From: Hippea sp. KM1
Lineage (GTDB): Bacteria > Campylobacterota_A > Desulfurellia > Desulfurellales > Hippeaceae
DNA: 64,000 bases
Reading direction: 5' to 3'
Assembly: GCF_000526195.1 (NCBI RefSeq)
Contig: NZ_JAFP01000001.1
Coordinates: forward strand, 780,001 to 844,000
In this document: positions 52,639 to 61,322 of the stretch, piece by piece
How the letters are laid out: every line of letters begins with the position of its first letter
How positions within the stretch are numbered: the first letter of the stretch is position 1
Program-made: the position numbers and the translations under genes
The notes under the pieces: generated by a model
Seen by the model: only the letters and a program-made list of their open reading frames with translations
Told to the model about the DNA's origin: nothing
Databases searched by the model: none

Positions 52639-52767
52639 ATTCCCCCTTTCGTTTGTATATTTTACTGAAAAAGATACAAAAAAACAACTTCAAAGATAAT
52701 AAATGTTTGTTAATGGTTTTGGTTGTAATTTATCAATATTGACCACTCTAATATATTACGGTTATGC

Positions 52768-54209
52768 TGCCCTCACTTGTCAAATCAATTCTTCCTATTC
52801 CCTTTTTCCTTCTCTCTACTATAATGCCCCGTAAACTTCATCAGATTTTTGAACACTTCTCTTCTCAAATCTGATAAGATTTGAGAGGTAATCAGATGTT
52901 CTTAAATCTGATTTAGTCTTAAAAGTTTGATTGATTTGAGGAGGTTGTTGTGTCAAAGAAACACAGAAAGTTTTCTTCTGAGTTTAAGGCCAAAGTGGTC
53001 TTAGAGTTGTTGGAAGGTGACAAGAGTGTAAGTGAGATTGCATCCAAATACGGCATATTACCTAAATCCATACATCAGTGGAAGAAGCAGTTTTTGGAGA
53101 ATGCATCCTTAGCCTTTGAGAATGCTGTCCCGGCAAAGAAGTATAAGGAAGAGATAAGAGAGAAGGAATCCCAAATTGAGGCTCTATCCAAAGCATTGGG
53201 TCAGGCTACCATAGAAAGGGACTGGGTATTAAAAAAATTAAAGAGCTTGGGCTTGAAGACTAAGAAGAGCCTGGTGGAGCCCAAGCTCAAAAACCTTTCA
53301 ATCACCAGGCAAACAGAGCTTTTAGGGATGAACAGGTCTACACTGTATTACAAGAACAAGCCAGAGATTTCAGAAGAAGACATAGAAATCATGAATGCCA
53401 TTGATGAGATATACACAGAGTTTCCATACTACGGATACAGAAGGATATACCACCAGTTGAGAAGAAAAGGCTTTGATAATGTGGGAAAGAGAAGAATAAC
53501 AAGGTTCATGAAGATTATGGGCATAAGGGCTTTATATCCCAAAAGGAAGAGATTTAAAACAACAGAATTGGATAAGAACACAAAGGCCTATCCATATCTG
53601 CTAAACGACATAATACCCACAAAGCCCAATCAGGTATGGGTCTCAGATATCACATACATCAGGCTCTGTAAGGGCTTTGCCTATCTGTGCGTCATAATGG
53701 ACCTAAAATCAAGGGCTGTATTATCACACAAACTATCACCAACAATGGATGATGAACTTGTTGTAAGGACTATAGAATCTGCTATAGAAAAATACGGAAG
53801 ACCCGATATCTTCAACTCTGACCAGGGGAGCCAATACACCTCAAACAGGACAATAGAGCTTCTAAAGAAACACAACATATCCATATCCATGGATGCCAAG
53901 GGCAGGTGTTTTGACAACATACACATGGAGAGGTTCTTCAGAAGCTTAAAACAGGAGAATATCTATCCAAGCTGCTATGAGAGATTCAAAGACGCAAAAA
54001 CTGGAATAGATGAATACATACACACCTACAATAGCAAGAGATTACACTCTGCTATTGGATATAAGACGCCTTTTGAGGTATATGGGTGTATGTCAGAAAC
54101 AAAAGAAAACATAGTTGCTTGAAAAGGAGGTGAGTAGTCCTATTAACTGAGAGTTAAGGAGAGAGAAGGAAAAGGGAAATGGGAAGAATTGACTTGACAA
54201 GTGGGGGCA
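52768..54209 (+). mobile_element. IS3-family insertion sequence, apparently complete
   Basis: Imperfect terminal inverted repeats begin TGCCCTCACTTGTCAA at 52768 and, reading in from the right end at 54209, TGCCCCCACTTGTCAA; 26 of the first 28 positions agree. The ~1.44-kb unit encloses one transposase gene. A 9-bp hairpin (CTCAAATCT/AGATTTGAG, 52864-52885) in the leader may block read-through. The outer flanks (left ...TTATGC, right ATATAT...) do not form a target-site duplication, and the right end interrupts an IS21 istA gene while its other half is absent on the left, so a deletion or rearrangement followed insertion. Confidence 0.9.
52950..54122 (+). CDS. IS3-family transposase (single fused OrfA-OrfB frame)
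   Basis: 390 residues. Residues about 1-95 are the OrfA part (HTH SSEFKAKVVLELLEGDKSVSEIASKYG and leucine-zipper-like helix). Residues about 110-385 are the OrfB integrase core with HTH_21-like FPYYGYRRIYHQLRRKG and DDE residues in VSDITYI, NSDQGSQYTS and MERFFRSLKQE. Many IS3 elements make the fusion by -1 frameshifting; here both parts are already in one frame, although an A7 run (53231-53237) sits at the junction. GTG 52950 follows GAGGAGGT. Codon use is AT-richer than neighbours. Probably functional. Confidence 0.9.
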   Translation: MSKKHRKFSSEFKAKVVLELLEGDKSVSEIASKYGILPKSIHQWKKQFLENASLAFENAVPAKKYKEEIREKESQIEALSKALGQATIERDWVLKKLKSLGLKTKKSLVEPKLKNLSITRQTELLGMNRSTLYYKNKPEISEEDIEIMNAIDEIYTEFPYYGYRRIYHQLRRKGFDNVGKRRITRFMKIMGIRALYPKRKRFKTTELDKNTKAYPYLLNDIIPTKPNQVWVSDITYIRLCKGFAYLCVIMDLKSRAVLSHKLSPTMDDELVVRTIESAIEKYGRPDIFNSDQGSQYTSNRTIELLKKHNISISMDAKGRCFDNIHMERFFRSLKQENIYPSCYERFKDAKTGIDEYIHTYNSKRLHSAIGYKTPFEVYGCMSETKENIVA

Positions 54210-55098
54210 ATATATTCAGCATGTCAAAGGGTTTCCTCTTCGTTGTCCCATGTATCCTGTTATTTGCCATCTCAAGCCATGAGAAGATGTATGAGTTTAG
54301 AAGCTCAGGTGTTATCTCTAAGCCAGAGTTCTTTAGCTTTGCCCTTAAGGGCTTGTAGAAGTTGTTCTTTAGGTATGAGTTAAATCTTTCTACCTTTCCC
54401 TTTGTTTTAGCCCTGTATGGTTTGCAGGGCTTTGGAATAAACAAGCCTTTGGAGAAGTCAAGAAAATCATTGTTTATTCCATGCCTGTTTTTGCCGTATT
54501 TATCCCTTTGTATTATGACGGATTTTAGGTTATCATAGAGTATGGTCTTTGGTATTCCGCCAAAGTAGTCGAAAGCTTTTATGTGGCAGGACTGAAATAT
54601 GTCCTCATCGCTATTGTTTGTAAAATAGACGAAGGCTGTTCTTGAATAACCCAAGACCATAACAAATGCATAAATGGGCTTTCTGCCTGCTCTGATAGTT
54701 GTCCAATCTGCCTGAGCCTGAAAGCCTTTTTCGGTTTCAAACCTGATTATCTCTTCACTGTCTTTTCCTCTTTTTGAGCCAATCCTATCGTAGATTACCT
54801 TTGTGTATTTCTGAAGTGTCCTTAGACTACCTGTGTATCCCATATCGTTTATCTCTCTTAATATGACAGTAGATGGGATTCTATCCGGGTAAGCTTGGTT
54901 GATCCTTTCTTCTATGTAGCCTTTGTAATCATTAAGCTTTGAAGGATAGCTCCTTTTGGGGTACAGTTTTAAATCCTCCTCTTTTAATCTTCTTGACACT
55001 GTTCTTCTGTTTAAGCCCAGAATCTTTGATATCTGCCTGATTGAGAATCCCTGAGAATAAAGTGTGTGAATCACAACAAACTCCTCCTTACTAATCAT
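54210..55098 (-). pseudogene. IS21-family transposase IstA, 3' truncated by the IS3 element
   Basis: The surviving ~296 residues have the N-terminal HTH (FSIRQISKILGLNRRTVSRRL) and the DDE core opening QAQADWTTI, then YFGGIPKTILYDNLKSVI and TKGKVERFNSYLKNNF. The true reading ends near KRKPFDML at 54210; an in-frame tail to 54154 is encoded by the IS3 terminal repeat. The rest of istA and the helper istB are missing on either side, so the element cannot move. An inverted repeat ACTAAAAGTG/CACTTTTAGT at 55148-55170 probably belongs to the IS21 end. Confidence 0.88.
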
Positions 55099-55172: not shown

Positions 55173-55560
55173 GTGTTGGTGGTGTATTTTAGCACGGCGG
55201 ATGACATCAAACAAAAAAGAGGCTTTAAAAGGATTTGAGATATTCAAGAAGAAGTGGAGCTCCAAATACCCCAATGTAGTCAAATCTTGGGAGAGGGAGC
55301 TTTATAAACTCCTTGCATTTCTTAAGTATCCTGAGCCTATCCAGAGGGTTGTATATACGACAAATTTAATAGAGAGAACAATAAAAGAAATCAGAAGAAG
55401 AGTTAAGGTGATAGGCGCTCTACCTTCTGTTAAATCTGTTGAAAAGTTCGTTTATCTGAGGGTGGCAATGCTCAATGACAGGTGGTCTAACAGAATAGTA
55501 AATGGCTTCTTGGAAGCAAGGGAAGAAATCAGAGAGATGTTCCTTGGGAGGTACTCATAG
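55173..55560 (+). pseudogene. IS256-family (mutator) transposase C-terminal fragment
   Basis: An open stretch from 55201 (about 119 residues) reads FEIFKKKWSSKYPNVVKSWE, PIQRVVYTTNLIERTIKEIRRRVKVIG and a final LEAREEIREMFLGRY, the conserved tail of IS256 transposases. Homology seems to extend upstream in another frame (YFSTADDIKQK, from about 55173), implying a one-base shift at the A6 run near 55220. About 260 N-terminal residues, including most catalytic acids, are lost. TTACACAAAAATCTTGACAC-type sequence at 55567-55589 resembles the IS256 right end. Confidence 0.85.
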
Positions 55561-55673
55561 GTGGATTACACAAAAATCTTGACACGACCGTGAAAATTTA
55601 CATTTATTATAAAAAATGGTAAAATTGAAAAAGAAAGTTTTTAAATAGCTTTTGCCTAAGAGGGGGGCGGAAA

Positions 55674-58600
55674 GTGCTTAATTCGGTCACGGAGTTATTC
55701 AATTTCTGGCAAATTTTTGAAGTGTTCCAAAATTTACCAGAGGTCGACCTGTTTAACGAACAAGGAGAAGAAGAAAGAGTTAGACTGGTAAACAGAAGGT
55801 TGGAGATTGGCAATGGTATATATACAGAGCCGCATCAGGCTTTTAAATCGTTTAAAGGAAAATTAAATACTGCTGACAGAAAAAGAACCTTCTTTTGCCG
55901 AAGTCATATAGGAATTATTAAGAAAGAAAAGGTCCTTAATAGAGTTTTAAGTTTTTTCGGTATGGACAATGAAAACTTTGACCAAGAAAAGAACGATAGA
56001 ATTGAGAACGAGTGGTTGTATTTATTTTCTGTTGTGGCAAATTCCGATAATAAGATAGTGGGTCTACCGATAGATTTAGATGACGATATCGCTGAAGATG
56101 AAAACAACGAGAAAACGCCCCGATTGGCTGTAAGAATTAAGCCTTTCTGGTTTTATTTGTCGAGGATTCTAAATAGGAAAAGAACCTTACTCTCAGCCAA
56201 TGAAATAATGGATCAAATAGAATTATTTAACGATCGATTCGCAGAGAGATTTAAGACATACTATAATACTTATTCTTATTGGATAATTGATAGTTCCTTC
56301 GTTATAAAACTTGCAGAGTTTTGGAAGAAAAGAGAAAATCCATTCCTGTATTATCTGAAACAAAGCAATTATAGCTTTATAATAGGCATATACGATGGCG
56401 TTCTTAGGGAACTCGATACATTGAAAGATAAAGGTGGTCAGGGTAATGAAGAGCAAAAGGAAAAAAGGAAAGACCTTATAAAACGAGGATTGGGGTGGCT
56501 TAACGAGATAATAAGAACTAATGAATATACACCAAACGGCGAAAGGATTAGCGGTAAACATGTAAAACGAGTATCGTTTTCTCATGAGTTATTTAAGAGC
56601 GAATTAAGTAAAGTGGATTTCGATGGGTTACATAGAAAACTCAAACCAGGCAGCAAATTCGATGATGTGGACAAAGCAGTTGTAAGATACGCAAAGTATA
56701 TGGCCGAATATAATTCACCTGACAATGTTGTTTTGCTTACTACCGACACCACTATGAAGCTATTTGCTTCTGAGGTTGGTGTATTATCAACAGGGCTCTT
56801 TCCTGATGTCTACGAAAGAAAGCAAAAGGGATTAAACAGGAGAGTGGCAAAAGAAATGGTGGAGCACTTTCTCAACTGGTTAGGTTTAGAAAAGTTTTTC
56901 TCTCCAGATGATTTTGATTACCCTATTGTTTCAACAGGGAAAAGTGTTGAGAATAAAGACTTCTTTAAGGAGGTTGCAAAAGAAATTAACGAGCCACCTT
57001 CCTTCTTTGTTAGCGAACTTGACCTTGCTAAGCTGCACTTTGATAAAAGCAAAACCCTACAACAATACATCTTTGGCAACCCAAATAGAAAAATGCTTAA
57101 CCCAGAAACAGAAATCGAAACCCTTAAGCCAGAAAACATACCGCCAGCAAGGTGGCTTACAGAAACATGGGCAAAGCCGTTTTTTAATCAGGCTTTAGCC
57201 CTTTCAGAAGCATACAGGAGATTTTTAAAGAACGATGGAAGCGGTATTATTAGCGTCAATGGCCCACCAGGGACAGGAAAGACAACAATTTTAAGAGACA
57301 TAGTGGCCAATATAGTAACCCAGAGGGCATATCACCTTGCAAATGACATCATCAATGAGCAGAACATACTTACTGAGAGCGATTCTGTTTTTGGCAAATT
57401 CTACAGATTTACCGATGATAGGCTTTGCGATTACAATATAGTCGTCGCCTCAAGTAATAACAAAGCAGTCGAGAATGTTTCAAAAGAACTTCCGCTAATG
57501 GATAAGGTGAGCGAATACAGAAACGAGATTCTAAATGAGCCAATCTTCACGCATTTTGCGGAATGCTTTAAAAACATGTCCAACGATGAATGTTGGAGTC
57601 CTATATCGGTGGCATTGGGCAAGAAGGACAACCTGAGGGCAGTTATTGCCGATTATATTAGAGAGCTTGGCATAATGCTTAAATATCTCTGGAAAATAAA
57701 CTATCCATCAGAAAAAGAAAGACAAGAAGCAGGAGAGAAAGGGGAAAACTTAAGACAGCTTATAAACAACATAAACCTAAAACAATATGCCAAAGACTTC
57801 CTTGACCTCTATAACGAGATTGAAGAGATAAAAAGATTAATTCCTTTTGATGAAATGGCAGAAAACAATGTCCTTACGGTTAAAGATTACTTTGAGACCG
57901 AAAGCACTCAATACACCGCCATCAAGGATGAGTATATGCGCCTAAGCAGCAAAATAAGCATGCTTGACAGGGAGATAAAGGAAACAACAACGCTAATAGA
58001 CGATAAGACCGAAGACATGGCAAATTACAAGCAGAAGAATAAAACGGCCTTTAGATTTTCTAAGATACCCCTTCTTAAAAGCCTCTCTTTTGTTAGGAAT
58101 ACGATAAAAGAGTATCAACAAATGCAGAAATCTTTAAACTCTCTAACAAGCCAAAAACAACAGTTAGAAGAAAGCTTAAGCAAACTAAAGAGCCAATTCT
58201 CTGTTAAAGAAAGAATATTTAATCTAAAAACAAATACGATGAACAAGCTATTGAGCCTATTTGAAAAACTTGGAATCGAGAATGCAGACAGCAAAGAGCT
58301 TGAGTTTTTATCCATTCTTAACGCCGTTTATAATTCTTCAGATAAAGAAAAGCAGCTATTCACGCCGTATGCAGCCGAAGCATTGGAAAGAAAGCGCAAA
58401 GAGTTGTTTTTTAAAGCCTTAAGACTGCACTACGCATTTGTTTTAAAGCACCGCCAGGAGTTCAAGCATAACATAGACTTATTTTTTGGTGTCTTAAATG
58501 GGGGTGGGGCGACCCAGGAAATAACGGATAAAGACATTGGGGCTATTGTGCACTTCTGGACGGCTTTTGCGTTTATAACGCCCGTCATATCCACGACCTT

Positions 58601-59558
58601 TCACTCAGTAACGAACATGTTTGCCACTCTAACAAAACCCAACTCCATCGGCTTTGTGATTATAGATGAAGCAGGGCAGGGAATACCTTATTATGCAGTT
58701 GGGTTACTCATGAGGGCTAAAAGGGCCATCATAGTGGGTGACCCACTCCAGATTGAGCCTGTTATTACCATACCAGAAAGCTTGAGAGATGTGCTTATAA
58801 AAACACTAAAAGCTGAGCAGATAGCAGGCGAATTGGGCGTCGGTATTGGTTTAATTGTTCCTGGACTTGAAAAAGCGGTGCAAATCTCAGAATCCGAAGA
58901 CGGCTTTATAGATACTTCCGTTCAGGTGCTTGCAGACAGAGCTTCAAGTATTCAGGCGGTTATAGAAAGAGATGGCTTTAAGATACCAATAGGAATACCG
59001 TTAAGGGTTCATTTTAGGTGTAAAGACCCTGCATTCAGCATTGCCAATACCATTGCTTACAGCAATACAATGATACATGGCAATGAGAGTAATAAAAATA
59101 CGGGCAGGGGGTATTTTGTTGATGTGGACACAAGCCAAGCAAACTGGACGAAAAATGTTTCCAATATTGAGATTAACACAGTCAACGAAATACTGCTAAA
59201 AATGTATAAAGATAGGCTTAAGGATGTATATATAATATCGCCGTTTGTGGGTATTACCTTTGATGATGTAAAGCGCAAGTTTAAGGGCGTGCCAAAAGGA
59301 AACATAGGGACAGTTCATACTTTTCAAGGCAAGGAGAATAAGGTTGTGATTATTCTCTTGGGTGGTGATAAAGATGGAGCGATAAAATGGGCAACAAGAA
59401 AACCCAACCTCTTAAATGTGGCCGTTACAAGGTCAAAAGAGGAGTTAGTAATAGTCGGCGATATAGAGAAATGGACAAAAAACGGGGGAGAAATGTTTAG
59501 AAAAGCCATAGAGTTATTGAAGCCTTTGGATGGTTTAGGGTATTATTGCGCATACTAA
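55674..59558 (+). CDS. PIN-domain/superfamily-1 helicase fusion protein
   Basis: 1294 residues. Residues 1-195 are unrecognised. A PIN nuclease domain (about 200-380) keeps four acidic positions: D206 (WIIDSSFV), E246 (VLREL), D331/D333 (DDVDKAVVRYA) and D358 (LLTTDTTMKLFA). A ~130-residue linker leads to an Upf1/Dna2-type SF1 helicase: Walker A GPPGTGKTT (530-538), a long coiled coil (about 690-900), Walker B IIDEAGQ (about 997), GDPLQIEP (about 1021), and motifs V/VI TVHTFQGKE and NVAVTRSKE (about 1211-1260). It should couple ATP-driven unwinding to RNA or DNA cleavage. GTG 55674 follows GAGGGGGGCGG. It lies directly behind the IS cluster, and the first ~1.3 kb is AT-rich, suggesting acquisition. 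Substrate unknown; a defence role is plausible. Confidence 0.8.
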   Translation: MLNSVTELFNFWQIFEVFQNLPEVDLFNEQGEEERVRLVNRRLEIGNGIYTEPHQAFKSFKGKLNTADRKRTFFCRSHIGIIKKEKVLNRVLSFFGMDNENFDQEKNDRIENEWLYLFSVVANSDNKIVGLPIDLDDDIAEDENNEKTPRLAVRIKPFWFYLSRILNRKRTLLSANEIMDQIELFNDRFAERFKTYYNTYSYWIIDSSFVIKLAEFWKKRENPFLYYLKQSNYSFIIGIYDGVLRELDTLKDKGGQGNEEQKEKRKDLIKRGLGWLNEIIRTNEYTPNGERISGKHVKRVSFSHELFKSELSKVDFDGLHRKLKPGSKFDDVDKAVVRYAKYMAEYNSPDNVVLLTTDTTMKLFASEVGVLSTGLFPDVYERKQKGLNRRVAKEMVEHFLNWLGLEKFFSPDDFDYPIVSTGKSVENKDFFKEVAKEINEPPSFFVSELDLAKLHFDKSKTLQQYIFGNPNRKMLNPETEIETLKPENIPPARWLTETWAKPFFNQALALSEAYRRFLKNDGSGIISVNGPPGTGKTTILRDIVANIVTQRAYHLANDIINEQNILTESDSVFGKFYRFTDDRLCDYNIVVASSNNKAVENVSKELPLMDKVSEYRNEILNEPIFTHFAECFKNMSNDECWSPISVALGKKDNLRAVIADYIRELGIMLKYLWKINYPSEKERQEAGEKGENLRQLINNINLKQYAKDFLDLYNEIEEIKRLIPFDEMAENNVLTVKDYFETESTQYTAIKDEYMRLSSKISMLDREIKETTTLIDDKTEDMANYKQKNKTAFRFSKIPLLKSLSFVRNTIKEYQQMQKSLNSLTSQKQQLEESLSKLKSQFSVKERIFNLKTNTMNKLLSLFEKLGIENADSKELEFLSILNAVYNSSDKEKQLFTPYAAEALERKRKELFFKALRLHYAFVLKHRQEFKHNIDLFFGVLNGGGATQEITDKDIGAIVHFWTAFAFITPVISTTFHSVTNMFATLTKPNSIGFVIIDEAGQGIPYYAVGLLMRAKRAIIVGDPLQIEPVITIPESLRDVLIKTLKAEQIAGELGVGIGLIVPGLEKAVQISESEDGFIDTSVQVLADRASSIQAVIERDGFKIPIGIPLRVHFRCKDPAFSIANTIAYSNTMIHGNESNKNTGRGYFVDVDTSQANWTKNVSNIEINTVNEILLKMYKDRLKDVYIISPFVGITFDDVKRKFKGVPKGNIGTVHTFQGKENKVVIILLGGDKDGAIKWATRKPNLLNVAVTRSKEELVIVGDIEKWTKNGGEMFRKAIELLKPLDGLGYYCAY

Positions 59559-59620
59559 TTCTTTTCATAAAAATTTAGAAGAAATTGAAAAGAGAGGGAA
59601 AATGCCTTAAAAGCTTTTGG

Positions 59621-59649
59621 TTGACTTTTTAATACCCGTGTGTTATCTA
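59621..59649 (+). promoter_or_regulatory. Promoter of the ODP-chemoreceptor pair
   Basis: TTGACT (59621-59626) and TATCTA (59644-59649) with 17 nt between, 36 nt before the ATG at 59686. It overlaps an upstream in-frame start at 59617, which argues for the later start. Confidence 0.5.
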
Positions 59650-59685
59650 ATTTTAAAAGTTTGGTTGTGGAAAAGGGAGGTTGAT

Positions 59686-60471
59686 ATGGGAGAGTATAAC
59701 AATAAACCCAATAGCGAAGTCGATGTGGAAAACGGTGAGGTTTTATACGACGATGGAGACCATAAATTTATCTGGCTTGGGTGGGGAAAGTTAGAGAGCG
59801 GCTTAATCCAGACCAATCAATATCTAATCATAAACGGGACAAAGGGTATCCTCCTTGATCCGGGTGGCATACACATATTCCCCAAGGTTGTGGCCAATGT
59901 TACCAAATATATCGATTTGGACGACATAGAGGTAATATTCTTCTCCCATCAAGACCCGGATGTCAGCTCAGGCATACCGATGTGGCTTTCTGTAACCAAT
60001 GCAGTGGTGCATATATCTGCCCTGTGGGTTAGGTTCTTGCCCCACTTTGGTATAACCGATTTCTCAAGGATAAAGGGTATACCGGACGGTGGAGAGAGGA
60101 TCGGTGAGCTTGAGGTTATACCAGCCCATTTTATGCACTCACCCGGCAACCACATAGTCTTTGATTCAAAGGCAAAGATCCTTTTCAACGGCGACATCGG
60201 TGCTGCGGTGTTTAACGAGGGGAGTGAGTATCTGTTTGTTGATAGGGATAACTTCAACTCCCATGTGGCCTTGATGGAGACATTCCATAAGCGCTATATC
60301 GCCTCATCCAACGCCTGCCGTTATTACATAAATAAAGTGAGATCGCTCTCTCCCAAGATGATAGCACCCCAGCACGGTGGCATATTCAGGGGTGAGGCTG
60401 TGGATATGTTCCTGAATTGGCTGGGCAATCTTAAATGTGGTGCAGATATAATCGATGAGTTGAGTAGGTGA
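59686..60471 (+). CDS. Oxygen-binding di-iron protein (ODP, flavodiiron-like metallo-beta-lactamase fold)
   Basis: 261 residues, a stand-alone beta-lactamase-fold domain without the flavodoxin of FprA. The di-iron ligands are visible: HQDPD (H-x-D-x-D), His in PAHFMHSPGNH, Asp in LFNGDIGAAVF and His in IAPQHGG. In Treponema denticola a protein of this class binds O2 and works with a chemoreceptor in aerotaxis; here too a cytoplasmic receptor gene follows within 5 nt. ATG 59686 follows AAGGGAGG. O2 reduction to water is an alternative role. Confidence 0.85.
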   Translation: MGEYNNKPNSEVDVENGEVLYDDGDHKFIWLGWGKLESGLIQTNQYLIINGTKGILLDPGGIHIFPKVVANVTKYIDLDDIEVIFFSHQDPDVSSGIPMWLSVTNAVVHISALWVRFLPHFGITDFSRIKGIPDGGERIGELEVIPAHFMHSPGNHIVFDSKAKILFNGDIGAAVFNEGSEYLFVDRDNFNSHVALMETFHKRYIASSNACRYYINKVRSLSPKMIAPQHGGIFRGEAVDMFLNWLGNLKCGADIIDELSR

Positions 60472-60476
60472 TAGCC

Positions 60477-61322
60477 ATGGCAGCCAGAGATAATGTTAAG
60501 TCTATGAATGCAATACGAAAGCTCTCAAAGGGTGTTGTCAAAAGCTCTTTTGTCTCAACGGCGACGATTGAGAGCTTTAAGATCATATCCAACAACATAG
60601 AGTATCTGGAAGACCAGATGAAGACATTTTCCGCCTCACTTGAGGAGATGGAGGGCAACCTCAAGGGTATGGCAAACAATGTCTCTAAGATCAATAGCGA
60701 TTTTGAGGAGTTCAATCTAAACATCAACTCCATCTCCGATAAGGTGACACAAAGAAACGAGGAGATAGAGGGCAGAAAGAGTGAGATCGATGATTTTGTA
60801 AACAGCATAAAGAACCTAACAACCGTTACAGAAGACATAAACAAGGCCGCAGGCAGTATATCCGATATAGCCAAGCAGACCAATCTTCTTGCCCTGAATG
60901 CAGCAATAGAGGCTGCAAGGGTCGGTGAGAAGGGCAAGGGCTTTGCCGTTGTTGCTGATGAGATCAAGAAATTGGCGAACAAGACCGATAGCATAACCAA
61001 CAACATTCAGGAGATACTCTATGAGTTTAACTATAAGCTGACCAGCACGGTGGAGAGGGTTGAGTCTGTAAAGGAGTTTCTGGATCAACTGCGCAGCGAC
61101 TTCAATGAATTTGCCGACACCTTTGTAAAAATCAACGAAAGCTCTAACGAGATAGCCGAGTCTTTAAATGAAAACAGCCTGGCAATCAACGAGCATGCCG
61201 AGGTGATAGACGATTTGACAAACAGGATTGTGCGAATCTATGAGCTTTTAAGCAGTATAATCAAGATCATAAATACACTGCAAGATGCAAATGTGAAGAT
61301 AGAAAAACTCATTAAGTTGTAA
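60477..61322 (+). CDS. Cytoplasmic methyl-accepting chemotaxis protein
   Basis: 281 residues with no membrane helix. Residues about 1-110 are a helical region of heptads, and the signalling hairpin contains the near-invariant SDIAKQTNLLALNAAIEAARVGEKGKGFAVVADEIKKLANKT. It should form the coiled-coil array with CheA/CheW, which are not in the window. It lacks its own sensor domain, so input probably comes from the ODP encoded just upstream. ATG 60477 after TAGGTGAT is preferred; GTG 60468 overlaps the ODP stop. Confidence 0.88.
   Translation: MAARDNVKSMNAIRKLSKGVVKSSFVSTATIESFKIISNNIEYLEDQMKTFSASLEEMEGNLKGMANNVSKINSDFEEFNLNINSISDKVTQRNEEIEGRKSEIDDFVNSIKNLTTVTEDINKAAGSISDIAKQTNLLALNAAIEAARVGEKGKGFAVVADEIKKLANKTDSITNNIQEILYEFNYKLTSTVERVESVKEFLDQLRSDFNEFADTFVKINESSNEIAESLNENSLAINEHAEVIDDLTNRIVRIYELLSSIIKIINTLQDANVKIEKLIKL

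Follow-up and report, generated by a model that had tools for sequence, protein, structure and literature searches.

What is a PIN nuclease doing inside a UPF1-like helicase in a bacterium, and does such a protein serve the cell or the mobile elements beside which it is encoded? The question is raised by a 64,000-nucleotide stretch of Hippea sp. KM1 (NZ_JAFP01000001.1, positions 780,001 to 844,000; the whole stretch is hereafter called the window), where a gene for a protein of 1294 amino acids lies on the chromosome of a genome of 1.74 Mb assembled in one contig. An earlier note, made from the letters alone, had described the protein as a fusion of a PIN nuclease and a UPF1/Dna2-like helicase, and this description stands. 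The reading favoured here, to which we give about an even chance, is that of an accessory, mobile, single-polypeptide helicase-nuclease in which a PIN domain was put into an otherwise stand-alone UPF1-like helicase, and which cuts foreign or aberrant RNA. The sequence itself shows the architecture, intact catalytic residues in both enzymes, purifying selection, mobility and kinship with the Mokosh type II helicase.

Architecture of the protein

The first 195 residues had been taken to be without relatives. They prove instead to belong to a domain common to hundreds of stand-alone helicases. A profile-profile comparison of the N-termini alone gave a probability of 92% (E=5e-7, score 45.6 over residues 3-130), and 100 column shuffles used as a control reached at most 21.0. 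A sequence-profile test of the same region was weaker, with 12.6-16.1 bits against shuffles of up to 12.3, so the homology rests on the profile-profile result together with collinearity. Among the best 80 relatives, nearly all stand-alone forms start with a motif like 'ILxFWRxxEIFNLPD', the counterpart of which in the 1294-residue protein is 'LFNFWQIFEVFQNLPE'. The order of parts that marks the stand-alone family, an N-terminal domain with a W...E...LP motif followed by an S-F-F motif and then the helicase, is likewise found here.

The alignment to the stand-alone helicases runs through 'FAERFKTYYN' before the PIN domain and restarts at 'VAKEMVEHFLNWL' after it. This break and resumption mark the PIN domain as an insertion at approximately residues 199-388. 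PIN and helicase do form one protein, as had been proposed, but on the alignment the PIN domain is inserted within the N-terminal region and not merely joined to the helicase. AlphaFold is confident for many blocks of residues 71-200 and gives a predicted local distance difference test score (pLDDT) of approximately 80-95 for residues 391-440. Fold searches with the predicted N-terminal and PIN model returned nothing significant.

The Pfam match to PIN_4 at residues 206-372 scores 42.8 bits (cut-off 21.9), with E=3e-9 on the whole protein and 8e-11 on the domain alone, and the domain alone is above the cut-off in all three PIN-clade homologues (best 2.6e-12). The four catalytic acids conserved in PIN_4 are present; D206, E246, D330, D333 and D358 are invariant among the PIN-clade homologues. 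The full acidic set that had been claimed is thus retained for D206, E246, D333 and D358, while D331 falls outside it because one homologue has E at this position.

The helicase part carries the Pfam superfamily 1 (SF1) domains AAA_11 and AAA_12. Every helicase motif checked is intact, including GDPLQ (1022-1026) and TVHTFQGKE (1213-1221) in addition to those in Table 1. The long coiled coil noted earlier between motifs I and II is borne out by helices predicted at approximately 736-788 and 805-865, yet by alignment it is a family-wide feature and not special to the PIN form. The helicase profile matches UPF1 (2.6e-21), SEN1, SMUBP2, Dna2 and ZNFX1 in the PDB, the yeast UPF1-Nmd4 complex 8rd3 being among the matches, and in structure comparison the predicted helicase model matches senataxin, UPF1, Sen1 and Dna2. 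By its motifs and its similarity to UPF1, SEN1 and SMUBP2, the protein falls among the UPF1-like SF1 helicases.

The presence of Dna2 among both the sequence and the structural matches raises a rather improbable alternative, a Dna2-style DNA helicase-nuclease that would unwind invading or damaged DNA, with its PIN domain acting as the nuclease on 5' flaps or single strands. FEN1-like DNA nucleases do belong to the PIN superfamily. However, UPF1 and SEN1 rank above Dna2 in the PDB profile search, and the family matched in Pfam, PIN_4, is known mostly in RNA-acting proteins. An enzyme cutting foreign or aberrant RNA is still the reading preferred here.

The gene is under purifying selection. Compared with the copy in G008, protein identity is 75.6%, with a non-synonymous divergence (dN) of 0.15 and a saturated synonymous divergence (dS). 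By segment, identity is 80.5% for the PIN domain, 72% for the N-terminal domain and 62% for the coiled coil (the last against L059); the PIN domain is among the best-conserved parts of the protein and the coiled coil is the least conserved segment.

The stand-alone helicase family

When 84,980 species genomes were scanned with the family profile, at least 445 relatives were confirmed, of which the best 80 were kept. Of these 80, only the top three either belong to the known PIN-clade copies or can be aligned over the N-terminal and PIN part; for the remaining 77 the match starts at approximately residue 353 or later. The stand-alone relatives have the same helicase with its coiled-coil insertion and the same N-terminal domain, at approximately 26-32% identity over the helicase. 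They occur in many bacterial phyla, on plasmids of Klebsiella, Delftia, Vibrio and Priestia as well as on many chromosomal contigs. A Pfam scan of the N-terminal parts of 88 non-PIN relatives revealed no nuclease. The median tail past motif VI is 35 residues, which leaves no room for a phospholipase D (PLD) domain in the family. Two stand-alone relatives (L049 and L135) have C-terminal extensions of approximately 300 residues past motif VI, without an HKD motif.

In the tree, the PIN clade is fully supported and lies inside the stand-alone family, far from the PLD-bearing MkoC proteins; its exact sister is a prophage protein (L046), with a support of only 0.83. Scans of viral contigs with the PIN-clade profiles gave no relative, and a plasmid search with the N-terminal and PIN region gave no match, even at an E of 1. 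Clustering of neighbouring genes in the stand-alone family revealed no conserved partner gene, which argues against a hidden operon partner. On the Agrobacterium plasmid pTiCFBP4996 (L021 4451-12421), a stand-alone helicase has a separate PIN_12 protein as one neighbour and an Mrr-type restriction endonuclease as the other; here a nuclease is perhaps supplied in trans.

Distribution and mobility of the gene

Full-length relatives at 76% and 58% identity have the same PIN/helicase arrangement and bear out the architecture. Within the phylum the gene is present in 4 of 25 genomes, namely that of the window, G008 (76%), G020 (58%, another family) and G012 (partial, being cut by a contig end). The PIN form was seen only in these four Hippea-group genomes and on one contig (L060) of a metagenome-assembled genome binned as Bacteroidales. 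The latter is 99.5% identical to the G020 contig; it is thus either mis-binned or very recently transferred, and was not counted as independent.

In the window, a single gene beside transposon remnants had been described, and insertion sequence (IS) genes and an IS256-type remnant do lie upstream of it. The genome of the H. maritima-like G007 (1,694,430 bp) is collinear with the flanks of the window at 44.5-52.0 kb and 59.6-64 kb. Between these flanks G007 has a DDE transposase gene, whereas the window has two IS genes, the IS256-type remnant and the PIN-helicase gene. The contigs of G008 and G012 that carry the downstream ODP locus contain neither the PIN-helicase gene nor the IS genes of the window; thus, the gene is elsewhere in both genomes. 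It occupies different loci in G000, G008 and G020, and this comparison of loci indicates an accessory and mobile gene.

These data also bear on a further explanation, that of an ordinary cellular RNA-decay or quality factor, like UPF1 fused to SMG6 or Nmd4, with no role in defence. Its fold and domain logic do resemble those of nonsense-mediated decay, as the match to 8rd3 illustrates. A housekeeping RNA-decay factor conserved in synteny was what the earlier note had set against a defence role; the search for one turned up a patchy gene at differing sites. It is absent from 21 of the 25 genomes of the phylum and its site in G007 is held by an unrelated transposase. This explanation, already weakened, is the least probable of those considered.

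The copy in G008 lies on a 33-kb contig together with a type IV-E CRISPR-Cas system (Csf4/DinG, 1.8e-56; Csf3-Csf1, 1.1e-47; Csf2; Cas6). The same contig encodes an IscB-like RRXRR-HNH protein, TraH, ArdC, SSB and a staphylococcal-type nuclease (L022 347-1654 and 12397-19180; L041 6569-15909), and is likely a conjugative plasmid or an integrative element. The company of TraH, ArdC, SSB and the CRISPR-Cas system may indicate that the protein is a weapon or maintenance factor of mobile elements (plasmid or integrative element against plasmid) rather than of the host, which would degrade the RNA of rival elements or aid the stability or transfer of its own. In line with this, 667 plasmid records contain relatives of the helicase, and for 573 of these records conjugative ability is predicted. 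In the window, however, the gene lies on the chromosome without any conjugation genes identified next to it, and many stand-alone relatives are on chromosomal contigs. We regard this role as unlikely, and the favoured reading remains that of a helicase-nuclease cutting foreign or aberrant RNA.

In G020 the PIN-helicase gene comes after a gene for a protein of 427 amino acids of no known family. A direct repeat of 104 nucleotides (90%), which contains a ribosome-binding-site-like sequence, stands ahead of this gene and again between the helicase gene and the next gene (L060 1356-1459 and 6694-6797), as if the two genes had been inserted as a cassette. In G008 and G012 (L022 2976-3887; L024 2332-3063), a conserved convergent pair lies beside the PIN-helicase gene and overlaps its 3' end by 4 bp. 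The pair consists of a Phd/YefM-like protein (weak match) and a second protein, and is absent from the window.

Possible function and significance

The protein is built on a UPF1-like SF1 helicase that has an N-terminal domain of its own and that elsewhere stands alone, with no nuclease to be recognised in it. Within the Hippea-group clade, its N-terminal region has received a PIN_4 ribonuclease domain beside the first RecA domain. The helicase may load on foreign or aberrant RNA, or on an RNA/DNA hybrid, from a phage or plasmid. ATP-driven translocation or a rearrangement of the N-terminal domain would then feed the strand to an otherwise restrained PIN site. Cleavage by PIN would destroy the transcripts of the invader or shut down the infected cell. 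The protein is probably a stand-alone defence enzyme, a helicase-RNase directed against mobile elements, although its defence function is one that we infer.

The earlier note had expected enrichment near defence genes, and for the wider family the counts apparently run in the direction expected of defence islands. In a comparison at 1e-12 that covered the loci of 32 relatives, the first two genes to either side matched 199 PADLOC models and genes approximately 8-10 kb off in the same loci matched 22, although these counts are of models and not of genes, one Gabija helicase matches dozens of models, and many of the models come from a few Gabija-like helicases. This limit weighs against the favoured reading, as do several other observations. 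In the window itself no defence gene adjoins the PIN-helicase gene, which is surrounded by IS elements and a conserved ODP/MCP locus. AlphaFold gives a pLDDT <50 for most of the PIN domain, and a PDB profile search with that domain alone gave chance matches only, none of them significant. UPF1-like helicases may act on DNA besides RNA. Finally, just three distinct full-length PIN forms are known.

A bolder version of the favoured reading is possible, if somewhat doubtful. The protein would represent a new class of single-gene immune effector, in which a widespread sensor helicase, as a rule without a nuclease, and a PIN domain acquired within its N-terminal domain form a one-chain bacterial counterpart of UPF1-SMG6/Nmd4 that recognises foreign RNA and cuts it under the control of ATP, and the stand-alone family would be a large undescribed defence family.

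Apart from function, the analysis identifies the N-terminal domain as common to numerous UPF1-like helicases, a family that apparently has no name and occurs both on plasmids and on chromosomes across many bacterial phyla. The PIN clade amounts to an experiment of nature, the addition of a nuclease to this shared domain in a single lineage. The Hippea-group host is a heat-loving vent bacterium. Should the protein prove protective against phages or plasmids, its stand-alone relatives would become a defence family open to testing, and the insertion would illustrate how sensor and effector modules recombine. The protein would then also offer a single-chain, probably thermostable model for the control of a PIN nuclease by a UPF1-type helicase.

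Features of the gene and its neighbourhood

The GTG start is supported by the GAGGGGGG sequence, by the promoter-like site upstream and by the homologues, which begin at the same residue. The first third of the gene had been called AT-rich; GC content is 0.358 in the first third, 0.381 in the second and 0.410 in the last, the window as a whole having 0.423, so that only a mild bias is left of this claim. Coordinates are collected in Table 1.

Table 1. Features of the PIN/UPF1-like helicase gene and of the sequence upstream of it (positions in the window).
Feature	Position	Strand	Basis or remark
IS3-type transposase (HTH_Tnp_1, HTH_21, rve)	52950..54122	+	Pfam; between 58-nt inverted repeats 52763-52820 and 54157-54214
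Second transposase (rve with HTH_38)	54154..55098	-	Pfam
C-terminal remnant of Mutator/IS256-type transposase	55201..55560	+	Pfam, profile 285-377 of 379
Promoter-like TTTACA-17-TAAAAT, TG ahead of -10	55597..55625	+	10/12 matches; shuffles hold such sites no less often
Shine-Dalgarno-like GAGGGGGG, 6 nt 5' of GTG	55660..55667	+	Read directly
PIN/UPF1-like helicase gene	55674..59558	+	1294 amino acids, GTG start
N-terminal domain, residues 1-198, homologous to that of stand-alone helicases	55674..56267	+	Alignment A5, profile-profile
PIN_4 domain insertion, residues ~199-388 (catalytic D206, E246, D333, D358)	56268..56837	+	Pfam match, alignment
Second part of N-terminal region, residues 389-442, then family-wide S-F-F motif 443-445	56838..56999	+	Alignment
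Motif I (Walker A) GPPGTGKT, residues 530-537 (K536)	57261..57284	+	Motif inspection
Coiled-coil insertion between motifs I and II, residues ~661-870	57654..58283	+	Alignment, helix prediction
Motif II DEAGQ, residues 998-1002	58665..58679	+	Motif inspection
Motif VI NVAVTRS, residues 1248-1254	59415..59435	+	Motif inspection

Downstream, at 59617-61322, a gene for an ODP-type protein of the beta-lactamase fold (PF19583, 7e-69) overlaps a short MCP signalling-domain gene by 4 nt. A match to the ODP gene exists in all nine genomes of the genus, and each of the three relatives compared retains the pair. The PF19583 family includes diiron oxygen sensors, and the pair is possibly an oxygen chemotaxis sensor.

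Comparison with known systems

Several known arrangements of PIN domains were compared with the protein. PhoH2 similarly combines, in a single bacterial protein, a PIN domain and then a P-loop ATPase. The ATPase here differs in being UPF1-like with AAA_11 and AAA_12, and PhoH2 was rejected as no PhoH domain was matched in the Pfam scan of the protein. A type II toxin-antitoxin system (VapBC) was also rejected: the protein has 1294 amino acids and its gene has a transposase remnant on one side and the ODP gene on the other, which is not the operon of a small toxin and an antitoxin. The defence systems DS-3 and DS-5, found with DefensePredictor, have PIN domains that were shown to be indispensable for defence against phages and that lack a classical antitoxin; they differ in that the parts of their description consulted mention no helicase partner (PMC13092281). 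The stand-alone UPF1-like helicases differ from the PIN form in lacking a PIN domain or other Pfam nuclease in their N-terminal parts. With UPF1 and SMG6 or Nmd4 of nonsense-mediated decay, the likeness lies in a UPF1-type helicase working with a PIN domain; the eukaryotic partners are separate proteins with other accessory domains, and only the domain logic is shared. No described bacterial PIN/UPF1-like fusion surfaced in the open-access literature, an absence that is weak evidence, the MkoC search having been swamped by unrelated results.

The closest comparison is with the anti-phage system Mokosh type II, a single-protein helicase-nuclease with PLD in place of PIN, so that the earlier statement that no comparable system is known is not supported. 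The Mokosh type II protein, MkoC, has its helicase at the N-terminus and a PLD nuclease at the C-terminus (PMC11672841). Both are one large protein that joins a COG1112/UPF1-like SF1 helicase to a nuclease, and MkoC is the best PADLOC match of the 1294-residue protein (1.5e-68, 229.9 bits over profile positions 255-949 of 1136, the helicase part). They differ in that the PIN domain stands ahead of the helicase, PLD is lacking and a long branch separates the two in the tree. PIN-clade proteins score approximately 226-234 bits with the MkoC profile, over the helicase only, against 1227-1518 over the full length for the true MkoC proteins L055 and L056 and 932 for an MkoC-like protein without PLD. 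Only 40 residues follow motif VI, which precludes a PLD domain; no HxKxxxxD motif occurs in them, while L056 and L057 have HSKIVIGD and HSKIVIRD there. Membership in Mokosh type II was rejected, as both the PLD nuclease and a full-length match to the MkoC profile are missing. Judged from these profile and motif comparisons, the protein is a relative of the Mokosh systems and not a member of them, and what is truly new about it is the N-terminal domain that it shares with the stand-alone helicases, together with the PIN domain inserted there.

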